From Marinibacterium anthonyi (lineage in GTDB: Bacteria; Pseudomonadota; Alphaproteobacteria; Rhodobacterales; Rhodobacteraceae), in the NCBI GenBank assembly GCA_003217735.2, contig CP031585.1, positions 4,203,501 through 4,267,500 on the forward strand: a DNA stretch of 64,000 bases, read 5' to 3'. Every line of letters begins with the position of its first letter. The stretch's first letter is position 1. This document shows, piece by piece, positions 20,517-42,166 of this stretch. Below the pieces are notes generated by a model, which saw only the letters and a list, made by a program, of their open reading frames with translations, was not told the DNA's origin and made no database searches. A program made the position numbers and the translations under genes.

Positions 20517-20650
20517 CCGCCCGGCTTGCGCCGGGCGGCCCCGGGCCTTGGGCCGGGCCGCGCGGCCTCTGCGAGGCCGCGCGGCCGTCGCTCACGGGAC
20601 CGACCGTTCGACATCCCACGCAACCGCCCTGCGCCGGCACGGCGCAGGGC
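20517..20650. repeat. Cluster of GC-rich palindromes downstream of the aldolase gene
   Basis: At least three strong hairpins lie in 134 nt: a 9-bp stem at 20517-20538 (CCGCCCGGC), a 14-bp perfect stem with 3-nt loop at 20556-20586, and an 11-bp perfect stem with 3-nt loop at 20626-20650 (GCCCTGCGCCG). A short one, CGCGGG-GCT-CCCGCG, precedes them. No coding sequence is seen in the 328-nt gap 20479-20806. The first hairpins probably end the aldolase transcript; the density suggests a palindromic repeat mosaic. Confidence 0.75.
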
Positions 20651-28436: not shown

Positions 28437-29459
28437 TTAACTCCACCGCCCGATCAGCCCGGTCAGAGCATTTTTTATGATCCCCCGCACGGACGGCCGA
28501 TGCGTCCGGGAAAACGGCAGCGGACGGCAGACTTCCATCGCCGCGACACCGACCCGCGCGCTCAGCGCCCCGTTGACCAGCCCTTCGCCGAACCGGCGCG
28601 ACAGTTTCGACAGGACCGATCCGCCCAGGACCGGTTCCAGCAGATCCTCGCCGGCCGCCACCGCGCCTGTCGCCACCAGGTGGGAAAACACCGCCCGCGT
28701 CAGCCGCCAGCCGCCGAAGAACCCCGACCGACCGCCATAGATCTCGGCCACCCGGCGGATCATCCGCAGGCTTGACGCGAAGGCCGTCGCCACATCGGCC
28801 AGCGCCAGCGGCACCAGCGCCGTCACCGTGGCCACCTGGCGCGCCGCGGCCTCGACTTCCCGCCGGGCGGCGGCGTCCAGAGGCGCCAGGAGCGTGTCCT
28901 CGGCCAGTTCCAGAAGCGCCGCAGCATCAAATTGTTCGCCCGCCCGCTCGGCCAGCCGTTCCCGCCCCCAGCGCGTGTCCTCGCGCCCGGCATACAGCGC
29001 TTCAAGCTGGCGGACGACCGACCGCGCGGCTTCCAGGTCGGCATCGGCCAGGGCCGCGTCGGCCTCGTGCTTGATGCTGTCGATCCGCCCCAGCCGGCCA
29101 AACGCCGCCATCTCGCGCAGGCCAAGCAGCAGCGCCACCAGGACGAAGGCCCCCAGCAGGACCGTCACGATCCAGCCCAGAATCGGCACGCTGTGCAGCA
29201 GCGACATGGTGAATTGCCACGCCGCGACCGAAATCACGATGCCCAGGATCGTGCTGAGCAACGCCCAGAACCACCTGGCCAGCCGCGACGCAGGACGGGC
29301 CGCAGCCCGCACGGCCGTCTCCATCGCGGTGCCGTCCGATCCAAAGCCCGGCCCGTCGGGGTCCGGCACCGGCGGCGCGTCGGCGACGTTCGGCGTCGGG
29401 CCGGGCTCGGGCCCCTGGGGATCGGGTTCCAGGTCGAAAAGGATGGGTCCCTTGGTCAT
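28437..29459 (-). CDS. ycjF: YcjF family inner-membrane protein (TIGR01620/DUF697)
   Basis: A 340-residue inner-membrane protein. A Pro/Asp-rich N-terminus is followed by two membrane helices near residues 63-85 and 94-112 (ALLSTILGIVISVAAW, ILGWIVTVLLGAFVLVALLL) and a long helical C-terminal domain with a hydrophobic stretch (ALVPLALADVATAFASSLRM) typical of the family. YcjF pairs with the GTPase-like YcjX in many proteobacteria, often under envelope stress control; the molecular function is unknown. The start overlaps the GNAT stop by 4 nt. Confidence 0.9.
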   Translation of the reverse strand: MTKGPILFDLEPDPQGPEPGPTPNVADAPPVPDPDGPGFGSDGTAMETAVRAAARPASRLARWFWALLSTILGIVISVAAWQFTMSLLHSVPILGWIVTVLLGAFVLVALLLGLREMAAFGRLGRIDSIKHEADAALADADLEAARSVVRQLEALYAGREDTRWGRERLAERAGEQFDAAALLELAEDTLLAPLDAAARREVEAAARQVATVTALVPLALADVATAFASSLRMIRRVAEIYGGRSGFFGGWRLTRAVFSHLVATGAVAAGEDLLEPVLGGSVLSKLSRRFGEGLVNGALSARVGVAAMEVCRPLPFSRTHRPSVRGIIKNALTGLIGRWS

Positions 29460-30022
29460 GCCGCCTCCGCTGGCCAGAGGTACTGGATGTCGGGCAGGCC
29501 CTCGTCATTGCCGTCGCCGTCGGTGCGGCACAGCTCACCAAAGCCTTCCCGAAGATAGAAACGCTGCGCGCCGGTGTTGGCCTGGAAGGTCCAGAGCCGC
29601 AGCCTGGGGCTTTCCGACTTGGCCAGCCCCAAAAGCGCCGCGCCGATGCCCTGTCCGGTACAATCGGGCCGGATATAAAGCGCATGCACCGCCTCCCCCT
29701 CCCGCGCGAGGAACCCCGCGATCACCTGCTCCCCGTCCCGCGACCCGGTTGCGGAGCTGAGCGCAGGCAGCGGCCGTGGGGCGCCGGGTGCGGCCGCGCC
29801 CGGCGCCCCACGGCCGCTGCCCCACCCCTGTCCGGGCGATGCCACCGGGGTGATGACGGCCACGCTCACCCAGCCCCGGTCGATCATCGTGGCGCAGAAC
29901 GCCACCGCCTCGGCGCCGCTGTGCTGCTTGGGCATCCAGGGTGTCTCGGTCTCGAACCGGTGCAGGATCTCTCCGACCGCGCCCGCGTCAAGCGGTCGGG
30001 CCGGGCGCAGGGCAAGGCTCAC
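29456..30022 (-). CDS. GNAT family N-acetyltransferase with an in-frame palindromic insertion
   Basis: A 188-residue GNAT enzyme. The acetyl-CoA-binding motif A is LYIRPDCTGQGIGAALL and motif B ends RLWTFQANTGAQRFYLREGF. Between the strands VSVAVIT and EQVIAGFLAREG lies an unusual segment of about 38 residues, rich in Gly, Ala and Pro (GQGWGSGRGAPGAAAPGAPR), encoded by a near-perfect 56-bp palindrome at 29766-29821. In the family this site is a short beta-hairpin loop, so the insertion is probably tolerated. The gene overlaps ycjX and ycjF by 4 nt each. The substrate is unknown. Confidence 0.88.
   Translation of the reverse strand: MSLALRPARPLDAGAVGEILHRFETETPWMPKQHSGAEAVAFCATMIDRGWVSVAVITPVASPGQGWGSGRGAPGAAAPGAPRPLPALSSATGSRDGEQVIAGFLAREGEAVHALYIRPDCTGQGIGAALLGLAKSESPRLRLWTFQANTGAQRFYLREGFGELCRTDGDGNDEGLPDIQYLWPAEAA
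29766..29821. repeat. 56-bp near-perfect palindrome inside the GNAT coding sequence
   Basis: Arms 29766-29788 and 29799-29821 (23 nt each) are exact reverse complements. The 10-nt centre carries the palindrome GCGGCCGC flanked by one T/G mismatch, so the whole 56 bp is symmetric but for one pair. It keeps the frame open through codons about 68-86. Its GC content is higher than that of the flanking gene. Confidence 0.95.
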
Positions 30023-42120: not shown

Positions 42121-42166
42121 GCAACAAGAAAGGCCGGATCCCGCAGGACCCGGCCTTTCTTGTTGC
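42121..42166. terminator. Bidirectional hairpin terminator
   Basis: A perfect 17-bp stem (42121-42137 with 42150-42166; GCAACAAGAAAGGCCGG) with a 12-nt loop lies between two convergent genes. A T-rich arm (CCTTTCTTGTTGC) follows the GC core on both strands, so it can end transcription from either side. Confidence 0.9.

Follow-up and report, generated by a model that had tools for sequence, protein, structure and literature searches.

The window, which is the whole 64,000-nucleotide stretch of Marinibacterium anthonyi DNA analysed here, contains on its minus strand a gene for a GNAT acetyltransferase of 188 residues (29456..30022), in which the Pfam domains PF13508, PF00583, and PF13673 score above their cut-offs. 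The gene is flanked by two neighbours that were assigned from open reading frames (ORFs) and Pfam matches, and all three genes point in the same direction. The start of the GNAT gene overlaps by four nucleotides with the upstream gene of a YcjX-like protein (PF04317, 30019..31434, minus strand), and its end overlaps by four nucleotides with the downstream gene of a DUF697 protein (PF05128, 28437..29459, minus strand).

The GNAT gene contains a 56-bp near-perfect palindrome (29766..29821, minus strand). The palindrome is composed of two 28-nt arms (29766-29793 and 29794-29821) that abut with a spacer of 0 nt, and 27 of the 28 pairs (96%) are complementary. Counted from the outermost pair inward, 23 exact pairs are followed by one mismatch at the 24th pair, which is C/A on the coding strand and T/G on the plus strand, and by the 8-nt self-complementary centre GCGGCCGC, the NotI site. 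A preliminary description of the locus had reported two exact 23-nt arms, a NotI-like centre, and a single mismatch in 56 bp within an intact coding frame. The coordinates, arms, and centre were all confirmed, and the 188-codon ORF (30022-29456, minus strand) runs through the palindrome uninterrupted. The palindrome encodes residues 68-86 of the protein (GSGRGAPGAAAPGAPRPLP), the final codon borrowing one base from outside. Since 56 is not divisible by three, the frame would be lost if only the exact unit were inserted. Direct repeats at the two ends of the palindrome did not exceed 2 nt at symmetric offsets of -3 to +3, a test that would miss an old or imperfect duplication. The target-site duplication that stands beside the terminal inverted repeats of a MITE was thus not detected, the longest end repeat being 2 nt.

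The structure of the protein predicted by AlphaFold2 from 27 sequences has a confident GNAT fold with a mean pLDDT of 86.5. The best PDB matches to the model are GNAT-type acetyltransferases: YjaB (2kcw) ranks first with an E-value of 9.6e-10, followed by YncA (3dr6) and PA2271 (9cr5). YjaB and YncA are both GNATs. The palindrome lies within the loop of residues 59-99 (29726..29848, minus strand) that joins the predicted strands 52-58 and 100-108. The pLDDT is below 50 at residues 71-91, which include most of the insert, while the remaining protein forms the confident fold. The insert is therefore placed by the model in a low-confidence β2-β3 loop, which is probably disordered, and the earlier claim of a Gly/Ala/Pro-rich loop between two β-strands agrees with the predicted structure. 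Nineteen alignment columns are invariant among 27 relatives, and all nineteen are outside the insert.

The genus is represented by three genomes: that of the window (G000), M. profundimaris (G001), and the metagenome-assembled genome SP126 (G002). Both genus mates possess the GNAT gene without the palindrome at the orthologous place. The loop, measured between the RGW-like and GFLA-like motifs, has 51 residues in the window, 30 and 19 in the genus mates, and 8-16 in the 32 other relatives that could be measured cleanly; no usable length could be obtained for 27 of the 62 distinct homologues. All three genomes of the genus thus have the longer loop. In nucleotides, its length is 153 in the window versus 90 and 57 in the genus mates, which corresponds to net excesses of 63 and 96 nt. 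The alignment with homologues that had been proposed as a check of the insertion therefore gave a divided answer: the palindrome is absent from both genus mates, but their loops are also expanded. The relatives compared are all too distant to reveal what the locus looked like directly before the event.

The palindrome is far beyond what is expected by chance. With matches scored +1 and mismatches -2, it reaches 25, the highest score in a first genome sample of 864 kb comprising the window and 40 stretches of 20 kb, in which the runner-up scores 20. The maximum score in ten order-2 Markov simulations of this sample was 13. Twelve real palindromes score at least 14 in the 864 kb, versus no simulated ones, and many of the twelve are outside coding-like frames. 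Real genomes thus exceed the simulation in palindromes generally, so that the simulation is a low bar. The top score in a second sample of a further 400 kb was 17, and the GNAT palindrome is the longest found in the 1.26 Mb sampled of the 6.8-Mb genome.

In the combined 1.264 Mb, 15 palindromes (12 + 3) score at least 14, and three of the 15 lie wholly within a coding-like frame as called by a rough heuristic based on ORFs and GC content by codon position. These are the GNAT palindrome, one at 20556-20586 of the window, and one at L141:7225-7261. The one at 20556-20586 is a GC-rich inverted repeat that spans 31 bp, has 14-nt arms, and lies close to where a DUF484 ORF begins. The DUF484 ORF overlaps there with a long opposite-strand PriA ORF, the first domain of which begins at residue 478, and the repeat may belong to the intergenic region between the DUF484 and PriA genes. 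The palindrome at L141:7225-7261 lies within the opening codons of a 739-residue histidine-kinase ORF whose first domain begins at residue 362. Both palindromes may be located upstream of the true gene starts. A borderline fourth palindrome (L106:15439-15469), within a 619-residue ORF in which no Pfam match was found, falls narrowly under the cut-off for the 864-kb set and would pass that applied to the 400-kb set. The GNAT palindrome is the only one of the 15 shown to have conserved sequence of its gene on both flanks, and a class of long coding palindromes was not seen among the 15, as far as the rough frame calls allow. Samples of 200 kb from each genus mate contained palindromes scoring up to 18 and 19, and one of them in G002 (L150, score 15) has a coding-like frame around it. 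Within the window, the palindrome second in length (42121-42166; 21-nt arms, spacer of 4 nt, GCAACAAGAAAGGCCGG...) is located outside any ORF of at least 60 residues according to the ORF check applied and may be a transcription terminator.

Exact copies of an unrelated 18-bp palindrome, TGTCCCACGCGTGGGACA, number 72 in the genome of the window and 76 and 44 in those of the genus mates, and its backwards control has none. Example copies are at L112:6189-6206 and L120:8286-8303 in G000 and at L144:3097-3114 in M. profundimaris; the window itself contains no copy within two mismatches. Only one of 60 other family genomes has the sequence, in a single copy. According to heuristic gene calls, 23 of 26 copies examined (22 in G000 and 4 in the genus mates) are outside ORFs, and 17 of these 23 are at most 60 nt from the 3' end of a gene. 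A conserved block like GGGTTRCAGMGGCGGATTTACC starts 23-24 nt past the palindrome in 17 of 25 copies, often with GTTAGG further on, so that the repeat resembles an oriented element about 70 bp in length. Five loci gave no Rfam match at gathering scores, and the 18-mer as a single string was not found in the literature searched. TGTCCCACGCGTGGGACA could be a putative genus-specific REP-like, MITE-like, or terminator-like element, and it may merit separate study.

For the GNAT palindrome, no second copy was found. The 23-nt arm with up to three mismatches was not found at a second place in the whole 6.81-Mb genome, in which the backwards control pattern had one match. A DNA search of the genome with a 76-nt query returned 47 matches at E <= 10; the palindrome itself accounts for two, and the others are short. 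This search found no other copy, and the best other match covered 24 nt at 92% among the 40 of 48 first-look candidates that were scored. Matches at E <= 0.001 were obtained in 22 of 394 family genomes, own genome included, in a shallow search with two candidates scored per genome. No comparable palindrome was found at the match in the inspected loci of seven of the 21 other matching genomes (L097-L103). Both-strand matches in G042, G132, and G103 had resembled related palindromes, but nothing comparable stands at the matches in loci L097-L103, where G042 and G132 are represented by one place each; the second G042 contig, G103, and other places lie outside this inspection. Among plasmids, 46 records match at E <= 1, and among phages 12 records match, in neither case with any covering 80% of the query. 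The exact 20-nt arm was not found in viral contigs, and a literature search naming Rhodobacteraceae found nothing related.

The preliminary description had proposed a counterpart of the Rickettsia palindromic elements (RPEs). The palindrome resembles them in being in frame within a gene and absent from the two genus mates, and the loop tolerates an insert, so that a protein-coding mobile element of this kind, present as the sole remaining copy or the sole arrival in the genome, was considered. Multiple dispersed copies were not seen, however: the search for the 56-bp unit that had been suggested found no second copy in 6.8 Mb and no palindromic relative among the 394 family genomes at the shallow depth of two candidates each and seven other genomes' loci inspected, and no plasmid or phage match extended across 80% of the query. 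In addition, RPEs are about 150 bp long and fall into ten families, and R. conorii has 44 copies (PMC10969869), whereas the palindrome has 56 bp. The RPE-like family was therefore rejected for want of further copies in the genome, family genomes, plasmids, phages, and viral contigs, and we regard even a solitary RPE-like element as very unlikely. An artefact of assembly or sequencing is likewise very unlikely. The palindrome is seen in one assembly only, but its frame is intact, which an artefact would presumably seldom preserve, one pair differs between its arms, and the contig that carries it measures 5.56 Mb.

The palindrome may alternatively have been selected as an RNA hairpin. A stable stem in a ycjX-GNAT-DUF697 transcript could slow ribosomes or be cut by RNase III and so set the ratio of upstream to downstream products. 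Over 96 nt, the predicted hairpin has an energy of -78.7 kcal/mol (z -7.1), and the three co-directional genes with 4-nt overlaps are compatible with a shared transcript, which is itself deduced from the gene arrangement. The absence of the palindrome from both genus mates speaks against a conserved role. An ordinary terminator was ruled out, since no run of U (T) follows the stem. We consider the selected hairpin unlikely. The broader proposition takes two forms: the palindrome would be the founder, or the last copy, of a coding palindromic element that is otherwise unseen among marine Rhodobacteraceae, or it would be an intragenic RNA hairpin under selection that tunes the ycjX-GNAT-DUF697 operon. 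It appears to us quite improbable.

Based on the anatomy of the palindrome, its single copy, and its position in a variable loop, a mechanism of its origin can be proposed. A single local mutation, a fold-back template switch in the GNAT loop, probably produced the palindrome. During replication, the nascent strand would stall where the loop sequence carries a short GC-rich inverted repeat, fold back, and copy its own just-made arm. The strand would then go back to the template, and the quasi-palindrome would thereby be extended to a palindrome with 28-nt arms. The product would be in frame and in a loop that is already length-variable within the genus, and would thus be tolerated and presumably neutral. 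The abutting arms without a spacer and the end repeats of at most 2 nt are consistent with a template switch, as is the single copy. The local duplication-inversion that kept the frame, which the preliminary description had offered as its alternative, thus explains the palindrome better than an RPE, given that no second copy was found. The proposal does not account for the in-frame return of the strand to the template.

A template switch also calls for a less perfect ancestor, to which a weak match in M. profundimaris may point. On the exact in-frame diagonal, 13 of 14 nt are identical between the loop of M. profundimaris and the inner part of the 5' half of the palindrome; the match is weak and was found after the fact. 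It was equalled by 6 of 5000 codon shuffles on the same diagonal, by 49 of 5000 with in-frame shifts of up to 6 nt, and by 81 of 1000 on any diagonal. With gaps allowed, this loop scored 27, a value reached in 95 of 2000 codon shuffles and in 60 of 2000 base shuffles; when reverse-complemented, the loop scored 22. The other genus mate has no match at the 5' half; its best gapped match (score 26, equalled by 30 of 2000 codon shuffles) falls in the sequence that directly follows the palindrome and is uninformative as to which half is older. The in-frame match of 13 of 14 nt weakly suggests an ancestral 5' half, of which the 3' half would be the inverted copy.

The GNAT palindrome shares with RPEs palindromic DNA that is read in frame inside a gene, but RPEs occur in families with dozens of copies (PMC10969869), whereas here there is one. 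It gives no evidence of a new element family. Rather, as a single event, it illustrates nicely how a protein loop could gain about 20 residues in nature, with the frame unbroken, when replication errs by folding back. In E. coli, template switching makes quasipalindromes more perfect (PMC7202029), and the likeness lies in a more perfect inverted repeat arising at one site, possibly within a gene. The lacZ reporters described there differ in scale, with an 18-bp quasipalindrome and 4-bp changes, whereas the GNAT palindrome has 28-nt arms and would require about 20 nt of new arm. Template switching has also been inferred in 39 yeast coding genes (PMC8604942). For the coding palindromes of Nematomorpha mitochondria, template switching is among the mechanisms that the authors propose (PMC6649704). 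The mitochondrial repeats, too, lie within protein genes, and they are perfect inverted repeats; they number 110 of at least 15 bp in four genomes and extend over conserved residues, whereas the GNAT palindrome is a single one, placed in a variable loop.
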